In this document: one piece after another, positions 1,514-5,850 of the stretch
Layout: every line of letters begins with the position of its first letter
Numbering within the stretch: position 1 is the stretch's first letter
Assembly (NCBI RefSeq): GCF_020164495.1
Contig: NZ_JAIQYZ010000001.1
Coordinates: forward strand, 62,001 to 126,000
Direction: 5' to 3'
Source: Psychroflexus lacisalsi
GTDB taxonomy: Bacteria; Bacteroidota; Bacteroidia; Flavobacteriales; Flavobacteriaceae
DNA length: 64,000 nucleotides
Notes under the pieces: generated by a model
Databases searched by the model: none
Told to the model about the DNA's origin: nothing
The model's input: the letters and a program-made list of their open reading frames with translations, nothing else
Made by a program: the position numbers and the translations under genes

Positions 1514-2692
1514 TCAGTCAGGAAACACAGCGACAAAGACTTTAGCCGATTGGGCTTCAAATTGATGTTTTAAATCTTTGATGGATAATTTTCCTATTTT
1601 ATATTCAAGTTGCTTTCGAGTCCCACAAACAATCTCGTTTTTAAATTTAAATGGCGTTAGATCTTTTTTATCGTAGGATGATATATAAACTTTTATCAAT
1701 TGGTCAGGATTAAACTTAGAACTATTAGCCTCAGCTTTTGAATACGAATAAGTGTAATCTTTCAATAGGGAAATCACATCTGAAAGCACTGCGCTTGCAG
1801 TGGGAATGCTTCCAGCTCCTTTGCCTTGTAGAAGTTGTTGCTGTGCAAATTCTGCATCGATTTGCACCGCGTTATTTTCGAATTCAATAGAGGTTAGTAA
1901 ATTATTGTTTTTGATAAACTGTGGCGCTACGAAAGCGTTTAGTCCATCGTCATTGAGTTCAGAATGTCCCAAAACTTTTATACTGAAGTTTTTTTCTTTG
2001 GCAAATTCAATATCCTCTGGTTTGATGTGTCGTATGCCCAAATTCAAAATATCTTCAGGTGTATTCAAAACTCCAAAAGCGTGATAATTGCTGATGATGA
2101 GTTTGAATTTGGAATCCCAGCTGTCGATGTCCAAAGTTGGATCCGATTCTGCGAAACCGTGTTTTTGAGCATCGGTGATGATTCTATCAAAAGGCTGTGG
2201 ATTTTGAAACAAACGCGTCAACACATAATTACAGGTTCCATTACTAATAGCTCTCAGCGATTTTATGGAGTCCTGACCAAAAGATTCTTCCAGTGTTCTT
2301 ATCACAGGAATGCTTCCACAAACCGATGCTTCGTAAAGTAAACTCACATTTTGCTTTTGGGCTAAAGCAGTGAGTTCCTGGAAATGCTCAGCGAGCATCT
2401 TTTTGTTGGCAGTAATGACATGCTTTCTTTTTTCTAAAGCTTTTTTCACAATTGAATAAGCAGCATCGGCGTCATCAATCAATTCCAAAACAACATTGAT
2501 ATCTTTGTCTTCCAATATATCTTTGGGTTGATAGCTAAAGTGTTTTGCATCTTTAGATCTTGGTTTATCAGGATTTTTGACAACAATAGTCTTAAGCTCA
2601 ATGTTTGGAATTGTTTTTTTCTTGAGTAAATGATAAATTCCAGAACCTACACTTCCAAATCCAAATAATCCAATAGTAAGGTGTTGTGGCAT
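1514..2692 (-). CDS. hom: Homoserine dehydrogenase
   Basis: 392 residues. Reduces aspartate semialdehyde to homoserine with NAD(P)H, the branch point to methionine and threonine. The N-terminal Rossmann fold shows GLFGFGSVGSG (residues 8-18); the homoserine-binding half has TRLFQNPQPFDRIITDAQKHGFAESDPTLD-like family sequence, and GKGAGSIPTASAV near residue 295 is the family signature. No aspartate kinase domain is fused, and no long ACT domain is present. It is the last gene of the riboswitch-led methionine operon, starting only 3 bases after metX ends, so homoserine is made next to the enzyme that acetylates it. Confidence 0.95.
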   Translation of the reverse strand: MPQHLTIGLFGFGSVGSGIYHLLKKKTIPNIELKTIVVKNPDKPRSKDAKHFSYQPKDILEDKDINVVLELIDDADAAYSIVKKALEKRKHVITANKKMLAEHFQELTALAQKQNVSLLYEASVCGSIPVIRTLEESFGQDSIKSLRAISNGTCNYVLTRLFQNPQPFDRIITDAQKHGFAESDPTLDIDSWDSKFKLIISNYHAFGVLNTPEDILNLGIRHIKPEDIEFAKEKNFSIKVLGHSELNDDGLNAFVAPQFIKNNNLLTSIEFENNAVQIDAEFAQQQLLQGKGAGSIPTASAVLSDVISLLKDYTYSYSKAEANSSKFNPDQLIKVYISSYDKKDLTPFKFKNEIVCGTRKQLEYKIGKLSIKDLKHQFEAQSAKVFVAVFPD

Positions 2693-2695
2693 TAG

Positions 2696-3706
2696 TTATA
2701 ATTTAAAATGTTTTCGTAATATTAATTTTATGGTTTCAACTTCAATCAAAAATCCGTCGTGTCCATAGGATGAATCGATGATTTCTAGTGCTGAATACCC
2801 TATACGTTCAGCTAAAAATTTTTGTTCTTCAACAGGGAAAAGCAAATCGCTTTGAATCCCAATGACCAAAGTTTTGGCTTTAACTTTTGCAAGTGCTTTT
2901 TTACAGTTGCCTCTATTTCTACCTACATTATGGCTATCCATGGCTTTGGACAAGTACCAATAGGATTTTGCATCAAAACGTTTGGAAAGTTTCTCTCCCT
3001 GGTATTTTTGATAGGAGGATGCTCTGAAGTCATCTACTGTATTTTTTTTATCTATTTGAGTGGATCGATAGGTGTTGTAGTTTCTATAACTCAACAGAGC
3101 AATAGCTCTTGCAGCTTCTAGTCCCTTTTTTCCAGCAGTTTTATTTTTCTCATAGAATGTAGAATCAGACTCAATCGCCATGCGTTGTGTCTCATTCAAA
3201 GCAATACCCCATGAAGAATGCTTTGCGCTGGTCGCGAGTAAAACCAAATTTTTGATTTTATCTGGTTTTTGAATTGCCCATTCCATAGCTTGCATACCTC
3301 CCATAGATCCGCCCATCAAATATTGGATTTCTGAGATTCCTAAATCTTTACTTAAGAGGTTTAAGGTTTTGGCAATGTCCCGAATGCTGAATTTTGGAAA
3401 GTTCAATCCATAAATTTCATTCGTTTCAGGGTTGATGCTTTGAGGAGAAGTGCTGCCATAACAAGATCCTAGGATATTTGCACACACTACAAAATATCTA
3501 TCCAGATCAATTTCATTTTTTTTGTCGAAAAGACCAGGCCACCATTCTTCAGGGTGAGCATTTGCTGTGAGGGCGTGACAAATCCAAATAACATTTGAAC
3601 CCTCTGCATTGAGTTGACCTAGAGTGTTATAAGTTAACTCAAACTCAGCTAAAGTCTGTCCGTTTTCAAGTTCGAAAGGATGTTGATATGAAAATACCTT
3701 AAGCAT
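2696..3706 (-). CDS. metX: Homoserine O-acetyltransferase
   Basis: 336 residues, alpha/beta-hydrolase fold. Transfers acetyl from acetyl-CoA to homoserine, giving O-acetylhomoserine for MetY. The nucleophile elbow is GGSMGG (Ser about residue 134); the catalytic Asp ([12 protein letters not shown], about 284) and His (YGHDGFL, about 316) are in the expected order. Acetyl rather than succinyl specificity is inferred from the MetX fold and from the O-acetylhomoserine enzyme in the operon. The start overlaps the end of the OsmC-like gene by 8 bases, which suggests translational coupling. Confidence 0.93.
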
Positions 3707-4163
3707 AGGCTTCTTCCTTGTAGGATGATTTTTTAATGTGATAATTTATCGCAGTTTCGTTACTCAAATTATCGTTGATAGGGCAGCGTTGTTTGACGCT
3801 TTTCAAAAGAAAATTGACACTTTCCTGAGTGGCATTGGTGACAAAATCAATGTCAACATCCAATGACTGAAACCCAGCCCTAACTTCTTCTGAAAGCCCT
3901 AAAAACTTGGAAGCATCAATATTGCCATTGATATTGATTTTCATATCGTAAATCTTGATGCCAAGATCTTTGGCCACCAGGTTGATCACTACATTAAGAC
4001 ATCCGGCGTAGCCAGCCAATAAATATTCTACAGGATTGGCAGCTAAATCTTTGCCGCCAAGTTCGTGAGGTTCATCCACCAAGAAATTGAATTGTCTTGA
4101 TTTTCCCTGATATAAGGTTGAATTGATACTCGATCCGTTTATTGAAAAGTTTGAAATACTCAT
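3699..4163 (-). CDS. OsmC family peroxidase-like protein
   Basis: 154 residues. OsmC/Ohr-fold protein with the two family cysteines: AGCLN at about residue 55 and RCPIND at about residue 126, consistent with a thiol peroxidase reducing organic hydroperoxides. It lies inside the methionine operon between metY and metX and overlaps metX by 8 bases. The position suggests a role connected with sulfur metabolism, perhaps protecting thiol intermediates, but that is inference; the substrate cannot be read from sequence. Confidence 0.88.
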
Positions 4164-4177
4164 ATATTTGATTTTTT

Positions 4178-5527
<1,350 letters not shown>

Positions 5528-5565
5528 TCAGGATTGAAAGCACTGAGCTTAATAAAGAAATGAGA

Positions 5566-5619
5566 AAGCCTATGCGCACATAGAAACAATGCACGGCATA
5601 GGCTTAAGCATTCGCATAG
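5566..5619 (-). promoter_or_regulatory. Competing hairpins in the metY leader (attenuator-like)
   Basis: On the minus strand the sequence GCGCATAGGCTT at the upstream ORF stop can pair in two ways. It pairs 10 of 10 with AAGCCTATGC (5605-5596 with 5575-5566, 20-base loop), or 7 of 7 with CTATGCG around the inner ATG (5619-5613 with 5576-5570). The two pairings share the same 3' arm and exclude each other. A loose T-rich stretch follows, but no clear terminator. The pairing is seen directly; a regulatory role is inferred. Confidence 0.45.
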
Positions 5620-5713
5620 AAAGCAAGCTTAAAAAATCTGATAAAATGCAATTTGAAGAACTATTCAAAATGAATAGAAAAGATAGAGTTGTTTTAAAAA
5701 AGGAGTAATTCAT
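5570..5713 (-). CDS. Candidate upstream ORF / Met-rich leader peptide of metY
   Basis: A 47-codon ORF starts at ATG 5713-5711, 8 bases after the riboswitch P1 stem, and ends at TAG 5572-5570, 87 bases before metY. Its last 15 codons, which could also start on their own at ATG 5617, read MRMLKPMPCIVSMCA: five Met and two Cys. The first 32 residues are hydrophobic and Ser/Phe/Leu rich. There is no recognisable Shine-Dalgarno, as is usual in this phylum. The Met/Cys enrichment directly upstream of a methionine gene is what a leader peptide would look like, but translation is not shown. It does not match any protein family I recognise. Confidence 0.5.
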   Translation of the reverse strand: MNYSFFKTTLSFLFILNSSSNCILSDFLSLLSMRMLKPMPCIVSMCA

Positions 5714-5721
5714 TTTTTCTA

Positions 5722-5820
5722 ATTTATATGTCCCTTATGGGGCAGGAATTAGCACCTTTCAACACTTTGTTGAGGTTGCCGAGGGTCGCGGAGCCTGTCT
5801 CTCGCCTCTTCTTTATAAAT
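5722..5820 (-). promoter_or_regulatory. SAM-I (S-box) riboswitch
   Basis: On the minus strand, conserved S-box blocks occur in order: a purine-rich AGAGGCGAGAGACAGGCTC, then CCTCGGCAACCTC, then GGTGCTAATTCCTGC. The closing P1 stem is formed by ATTTATA (5820-5814) and TATAAAT (5728-5722). It is the leader of metY-osmC-metX-hom. No strong terminator follows before metY, so control may act at translation, perhaps of the upstream ORF that starts 8 bases downstream. That mode is inferred. Confidence 0.9.
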
Positions 5821-5850
5821 CACACACCAGTAAAGTGGTAAATGATAGGA

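Follow-up and report, generated by a model that had tools for sequence, protein, structure and literature searches.

In enterobacteria, the trp, his and leu operons are governed by ribosome-mediated leader-peptide attenuators. The tna operon, in turn, is subject to a Rho-dependent attenuation in which the ribosome translating TnaC stalls beside the stop codon.

Leaders closer to the one described here have been reported from several bacterial groups, and we refer to these reports as far as their accessible sections go. A Met/Cys-rich leader peptide, MetL, precedes metNIQ in Streptomyces lividans and lacks a typical Rho-independent terminator (PMC8079986); on the accessible text, it is the nearest peptide precedent for the present locus. 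In Mycobacterium tuberculosis, riboswitch and translated upstream open reading frame (uORF) share one leader in the Mbox-uORF (PMC12810186) and B12 riboswitch-uORF (PMC11260477) cases, with Rho-dependent termination for the former (PMC12810186), and mycobacterial leaderless short ORFs encoding polycysteine are reported to act as cysteine-responsive attenuators (Canestrari et al. 2020). Furthermore, "strong clues" for leader-peptide attenuation were reported upstream of amino-acid operons in F. psychrophilum (PMC9723704), and leader-peptide-like sORFs in Bacteroides (PMC7366714). Our full-text searches of the open-access literature found neither a SAM-I/leader-peptide tandem nor a metY leader peptide. 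The parts of the arrangement described below are of known kinds; their combination, the swapping of their order and their spread in Bacteroidota appear to be new.

The locus lies within 64,000 nucleotides of Psychroflexus lacisalsi DNA (the window) and comprises the following features:

5721..5821, minus strand: SAM-I riboswitch aptamer (S box), RF00162 at 71.2 bits (gathering threshold 44.4)
5570..5713, minus strand: uORF of 47 codons plus TAG, MNYSFFKTTLSFLFILNSSSNCILSDFLSLLSMRMLKPMPCIVSMCA, with its ATG 7 nt after the aptamer; kept in the genus
5570..5617, minus strand: last 15 codons of the uORF plus TAG, with 4 Met and 2 Cys, the proposed control codons
5568..5603, minus strand: hairpin A, 12 pairs, with the last codons inside and the stop in its 3' arm
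5515..5548, minus strand: hairpin C, two stacked stems between uORF and metY, with changes on both sides of pairs
5507..5573, minus strand: possible alternative pairing B, 5559-5573 with 5507-5521, which would exclude A and C
5483..5569, minus strand: untranslated spacer from the uORF stop to the metY start, 87 nt with 18 C and 10 G
4178..5482, minus strand: metY, O-acetylhomoserine/O-acetylserine sulfhydrylase, TIGR01326 at 664.2 bits (cut-off 495.1)
3699..4163, minus strand: OsmC-like protein, PF02566; NF041052 at 77.8 bits, under its cut-off of 95
2696..3706, minus strand: metX-like homoserine acyltransferase, NF001209 at 334.6 bits (cut-off 331); TIGR01392 at 353.8 bits, under its cut-off of 500
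1514..2692, minus strand: homoserine dehydrogenase, NF004976 at 330.2 bits (cut-off 205)

The original prediction had placed a SAM-I aptamer upstream of metY and a 47-codon ORF directly behind it, and both were borne out. The aptamer, well above the gathering threshold, spans the full RF00162 covariance model (positions 1-108) and is the only RF00162 match found in a search of the whole genome; the ORF runs from 5713 to 5570, and its distance of 7 nt is counted from the end of the Rfam aptamer. The order on the minus strand is thus SAM-I, uORF, metY, osmC, metX and homoserine dehydrogenase, with recA divergent. From sequence comparison, we consider it likely, and with good confidence, that the uORF encodes a leader peptide in which the ribosome reads the supply of charged tRNA-Met and tRNA-Cys at the last codons and sets the expression of metY-osmC-metX-hom.

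As in the trp, his and leu attenuators, a short ORF rich in codons for the product stands upstream of a biosynthetic operon, and 15 relatives have a terminator, which in 10 of them is accompanied by a supported competing antiterminator; unlike in those operons, the window leader itself is terminator-less, its control codons sit right at the stop and its uORF lies behind a SAM-I aptamer. The stall site beside the stop recalls TnaC, and in either case the stalled ribosome could keep Rho from its loading region. The signal here, however, would be a shortage of charged tRNA instead of free tryptophan acting with the nascent peptide, and Rho dependence is putative. MetL likewise carries Met and Cys near its C-terminus (ending ARCMCRRMCAF before the stop) and no typical terminator, whereas it belongs to Actinobacteria, to a methionine importer and to a leaderless transcript, and the SAM riboswitches of that genome stand at other genes, according to the accessible part of PMC8079986. 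The M. tuberculosis riboswitch-uORF leaders differ in ligand and phylum, and the accessible text describes no amino-acid control codons in them; the mycobacterial polycysteine short ORFs differ in being leaderless, and the accessible text on F. psychrophilum names neither a SAM riboswitch tandem nor a Met/Cys peptide.

The tail of the window uORF, MRMLKPMPCIVSMCA, holds 4 Met and 2 Cys (6/15), one Met fewer than the five Met and two Cys originally counted. The window contains 695 ORFs of 20-70 aa, and in every other one the last 15 codons include no more than 4 Met/Cys. When the 238-nt leader was dinucleotide-shuffled 40,000 times, six were reached once and more than six never. The uORF is hence enriched in codons for the product of its operon, as expected of a leader-peptide attenuator, and one residue (Ala) separates the last Cys from the stop. 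The last codons and the stop also lie within a strong hairpin with the arms CCTATGC/GCATAGG, so that some of the ATG and TGC triplets could stem from RNA pairing; relatives are therefore needed to separate selection on the peptide from selection on the RNA.

The nearest named relatives belong to Psychroflexus. SAM-I is present in 19 of 27 genomes of this genus, at 20 sites, of which 18 precede this metY, one a metH-like gene (L036) and one another sulfhydrylase-like gene (L050). The 8 genomes without SAM-I (G003, G009, G012, G015, G016, G018, G019 and G020) are also without this metY: five have no metY match at E 1e-40, and three have one at 42-43% identity over about half of the protein. In all 18 SAM-I metY leaders of the genus, a uORF starts 1-13 nt past the Rfam aptamer end and has three or more Met/Cys in its final 12 codons, and Met plus Cys account for 100 of 216 tail codons against 29 of 506 in the rest. 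Ten core leaders encode variants of MN......T....MRM..PMSC...MCA followed by the stop, with the reading frame maintained across length differences of 12 and 3 nt, and other uORFs of the genus terminate, directly before the stop, in MRMCMCC, MRMCC, MQMCC, MRMRMSC, MCCCQNMCC or an MMMSM..MRMQ-like sequence. The +1 frame of the Psychroflexus tails is Cys-rich as well (44 Cys codons of 198), because the hairpin CCTATGC...GCATAGG repeats ATGC. Two duplicates were left in some counts: L039, nearly the same as the window sequence, and L229, a Psychroflexus MAG identical to L042.

A synonymous-substitution pattern, which a coding leader had been expected to show, appeared in part: pS exceeds pN about 1.5-3-fold over whole uORFs in most Psychroflexus pairs, a mild excess with weak amino-acid constraint outside the tail, whereas in most Algoriphagus uORF pairs pS roughly equals pN or falls below it. 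The support from this pattern is weak, too slight to be decisive.

Beyond the genus, 72 loci (L171-L242, including the Psychroflexus MAG) were chosen by metY similarity only; a mechanical rule assigned a uORF in 57 of them, and the other 15 were left out of the tail counts. The first ATG follows the P1 pattern by 10-11 nt in 53 of 65 sequences that have the aptamer core and this pattern (8 Psychroflexus included). Of 32 uORFs outside Psychroflexus and the Algoriphagus group, 25 have three or more Met/Cys codons among their final 12. Retention of the peptide's Met codons in relatives, on which the original prediction had made its case depend, therefore held in most uORFs of these other genera, as it did in all 18 Psychroflexus leaders. 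In these 32 uORFs, Met and Cys make up 126 of 384 tail codons and 22 of 824 in the rest; the in-frame tail count of 88 Cys plus 38 Met compares with 40/352 in the +1 and 11/352 in the +2 frame. Tails are often poly-Cys, for instance CCCCCMCC, MCCCCCNS and MCMCCCMCN directly before the stop, and Cys is no less prominent than Met, with poly-Cys in many genera. By eye, peptides of different genera have little in common except Met/Cys close to the stop. The Algoriphagus group (in the tail count, 24 Algoriphagus loci plus L173 from Cyclobacteriaceae) has its uORF at the same place, and only 2 of 25 are Met/Cys-rich.

As a separate observation, the uORFs of the Algoriphagus leaders within L173-L213 start mostly 10-11 nt behind the SAM-I P1 pattern, show no Met/Cys enrichment and end nearer to metY. 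The uORF of this group may serve SAM gating alone.

At the level of the phylum, metY was detected at E 1e-100 in 226 of 296 Bacteroidota genomes, from which we took 68 upstream regions, namely 28 of the 30 best-match loci (the other two being Psychroflexus) and 40 hand-picked for genus spread among the matches listed. A strict criterion, at least 5 Met/Cys in 8 consecutive codons of an ATG ORF of 15-75 aa, identified a uORF in 25 of the 68 and none in the remaining 43; reverse strands gave 0/68 and shuffles 0/1360. The same test yielded 14 among the 72 loci (shuffles 0/1440) and 10/18 in Psychroflexus (shuffles 0/360), with no hit on the reverse strands of either set. Lowering the level to 4 of 8 raised the counts to 29/68, 22/72 and 17/18, again with none on reverse strands, and shuffles reached this level in 16/1360, 9/1440 and 0/360, respectively. 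The 8-codon test still misses L046, though its uORF ends in MRMRMSC before the stop. According to Rfam, SAM-I precedes the uORF in 11 of the 25 strict leaders and follows it in 8, and the searched stretch has no SAM-I match in 6, one of which (L305) looks accidental. The arrangement is not confined to Flavobacteriaceae; either order is found, and some leaders have the uORF with no SAM-I match.

An Rfam SAM-I match was present in 19 of 20 loci that had been chosen mostly for Met/Cys-rich ORFs. Conversely, SAM-I sites of other genera or other genes in Flavobacteriales numbered 112 (111 distinct, as L162 repeats L012); 5 of these have an ORF of 15-70 aa starting within 14 nt, none of them Met/Cys-rich. 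One of the 112 (L016) passes the strict 8-codon test and 3 pass the looser level, two of which (L002 and L125) start inside the downstream gene. In L016 itself, a metX leader of family f15, SAM-I and an adjacent terminator-like hairpin are followed by a uORF that ends in SMPMCCCCC before metX; its relatives L023, L025 and L027 show only weak remnants of this peptide.

A scan of the window leader found no intrinsic terminator, and hence no terminator with a competing antiterminator. Hairpin C has no U-tract and therefore makes no obvious one. Hairpin A is paired in 99.1% of cells (12 pairs, 9 core Psychroflexus leaders), and hairpin C has changes on both sides at 3 of 9 pairs, or 4 of 10 in the consensus fold. 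Taken together, A and C are paired in 98.9% of cells, with 3 of 21 pairs changed on both sides, all in C; three such pairs were reached by 35 of 500 shuffles and the covariation score by none, so that covariation is modest. Pairing B is 80% complementary over 15 nt in the window. Its 5-bp core is paired in only 84.4% in relatives, with no compensatory change, and B is therefore not established. Since the pairing needed to couple hairpin A to hairpin C is poorly kept, a readout purely by RNA switching is less favoured.

Pairing of the last codons with RNA further downstream, as the basis of a general switch, found no support across 49 terminator-less leaders, where the mean z was -0.14 and 7 of 49 lay at or below 5 of 100 shuffles.

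Different from the window leader, some relatives do possess terminators. We scanned the 68 leaders with at least 4 Met/Cys in 8 codons, drawn from the phylum sample, the 72 loci and Psychroflexus. Terminator-like hairpins follow the control codons in 18 of these 68 against 28 of 680 shuffled stretches, and hairpins of -11.5 kcal/mol or better in 16/68 against 11/680. Three hairpins (L171, L236 and L305) were judged unconvincing, and the 15 accepted terminators, two of them in Psychroflexus (L040 and L043), start 15-36 nt after the uORF stop. A competing antiterminator is well supported in 10 of the 15, where the pairing of the uORF end with the 5' arm of the terminator was matched by no more than 3 of 60 shuffles; for the five others, 5-13 of 60 shuffles pair as well. 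For instance, the codons after the control run of L269, GTGAGAATG, pair with the terminator 5' arm CATTCTCAC, and in L040 CAGTAGGCT, which includes the TAG stop, pairs with AGCCTACTG. Judged by their predicted pairings, leaders with a terminator and a competing antiterminator are built like classical attenuators. L040 and L043 have the same SAM-I, uORF, metY order as the window; the minimum-energy fold is the terminator in L040 and the antiterminator in L043. The view of the leader peptide as a second sulfur-amino-acid input beside SAM is accordingly supported by the Met/Cys tail kept in relatives and by terminator and antiterminator in several of them.

The terminator-less leaders, 49 after setting aside L272, L276, L303 and L305, whose clusters look accidental, have a different layout. 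In 42 of 49, no residue or a single one separates the last Met/Cys codon from the stop, as opposed to 2 of 15 in the terminator class. The spacer has a C/G ratio of 1.89, with C exceeding G in 47 of 49, compared with 0.94 (8 of 15) in the terminator class, 1.14 (9 of 20) upstream of window genes and 1.19 (53 of 70) in SAM-I leaders that lack a uORF of this type. C-richness does not track the Met/Cys codons, however, since Algoriphagus-group spacers are also C-rich (2.66, C exceeding G in 20 of 20). The spacer is longer in Met/Cys-rich leaders (median 94 nt, n=27, with the Met/Cys-rich Algoriphagus loci L223 and L224 placed in this set) than in the Algoriphagus group (57 nt, n=23), at p 3e-8 in a comparison that ignores relatedness. 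The genome encodes Rho (643.9 bits), and the window leader accordingly combines the sequence features of a Rho-dependent tna-like leader, that is, a stop-adjacent stall site, a C-rich and G-poor spacer and a rho gene.

We propose that in the window leader the peptide would sense in series with the SAM-I riboswitch, as the second of two sensors. Once the aptamer has bound SAM, its P1 helix, which ends 7 nt before the ATG, would hinder initiation at the uORF and leave the leader open to Rho, and in the absence of SAM the uORF would be translated. When Met- or Cys-tRNA runs short, the ribosome would stall on the last codons beside the stop and cover the start of the C-rich spacer. The Rho loading region would thereby be masked, and RNA polymerase would read through into metY. 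With charged tRNA at hand, or with the uORF untranslated, the spacer would lie bare and Rho would end transcription. Expression of metY would thus require low SAM together with low charged Met/Cys-tRNA, two signals that point the same way. We infer that this tnaC-like reading is the simplest one that uses all features of the terminator-less leaders. Taken singly, the SAM gating of the uORF in the window leader may or may not operate, with the balance about even, and the putative Rho-dependent, tnaC-like readout has about the same even chance. L040 and L043 do not fit simple SAM gating, as an untranslated uORF would favour the antiterminator there; SAM must therefore act in these leaders in some other way. 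The wider model, in which SAM gates ribosome entry, the tail reads Met/Cys-tRNA and Rho gives the output of an AND of two signals, with the sensors as interchangeable modules across Bacteroidota (SAM-I before, after or absent; intrinsic terminator or Rho-type), is tentative, and we hold it to be somewhat less likely than not.

Could the uORF instead be just a translated spacer? Much as in the Mbox-uORF leader, its translation under SAM-I control would then shield the leader as part of a translational or Rho-dependent SAM-I switch, and its codons would carry no signal. The near-constant distance of the ATG behind P1 speaks for this, as do the precedent itself, as far as the accessible text of PMC12810186 describes it, and the Algoriphagus group, whose retained uORF is Met/Cys-rich in only 2 of 25 and stands before C-rich and short spacers. 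A signal-free ORF, on the other hand, does not readily account for a Met/Cys tail that recurs in dissimilar peptides (25/68 against 0/1360 shuffles), that is found also without a SAM-I match and together with terminator and antiterminator, and that is followed by a longer spacer (94 against 57 nt); we regard this explanation as unlikely.

Far less probable still is that the ORF arose by chance, with ATG and TGC as by-products of the hairpin CCTATGC...GCATAGG and the RNA alone under selection. Hairpin A does cover the Met/Cys codons and is almost fully paired in the nine core leaders, and TGC is frequent in the +1 frame of Psychroflexus, too. The frame nevertheless survives the 12- and 3-nt length differences, the Met/Cys excess of other genera is in frame (126/384 against 40/352 and 11/352), and leaders without these arms (L045-L049, L171, L231 and others) end in in-frame Met/Cys, on which ground we rejected a hairpin-only origin. 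Just as improbable is a functional Cys/Met-rich small protein acting in trans, for instance by binding metals or thiols. Cys clusters can bind metals, and the ORF is conserved; the peptide, however, has no match in NCBIfam or Pfam, little beyond Met/Cys near the stop is shared across genera by eye, at most one residue follows the last Met/Cys codon in 42 of 49 leaders, and attenuator RNA structure lies downstream of some uORFs. The leader peptide that reads charged tRNA-Met and tRNA-Cys thus stays our preferred explanation.

If true, sulfur amino acid synthesis in a phylum with few described systems of this kind would turn out to be under a widespread leader-peptide regulator. The finding would also provide a natural series of leaders in which riboswitch and leader peptide are joined in varied orders and readouts, and with which it becomes testable how metabolite sensing by RNA is joined to the sensing of tRNA charge by the ribosome. 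Such leaders would have a bearing on translation in Bacteroidota and could serve as a two-input genetic control part.

Some metY leaders of the phylum sample deserve mention for their individual layouts. In L268, L270, L274, L280, L286, L287, L288 and L291, the order is reversed, with SAM-I standing behind a Met/Cys leader peptide that has an intrinsic terminator of its own. By eye, a second terminator-like hairpin follows the aptamer in L268, L270, L280, L288 and L291, making two attenuators in series. L262, L265 and L269 encode leader peptides with MCMMMCC runs, together with terminator and antiterminator, and have no SAM-I match upstream of metY. Finally, the metY leader of L304 contains SAM-I/IV (RF01725) in place of RF00162.
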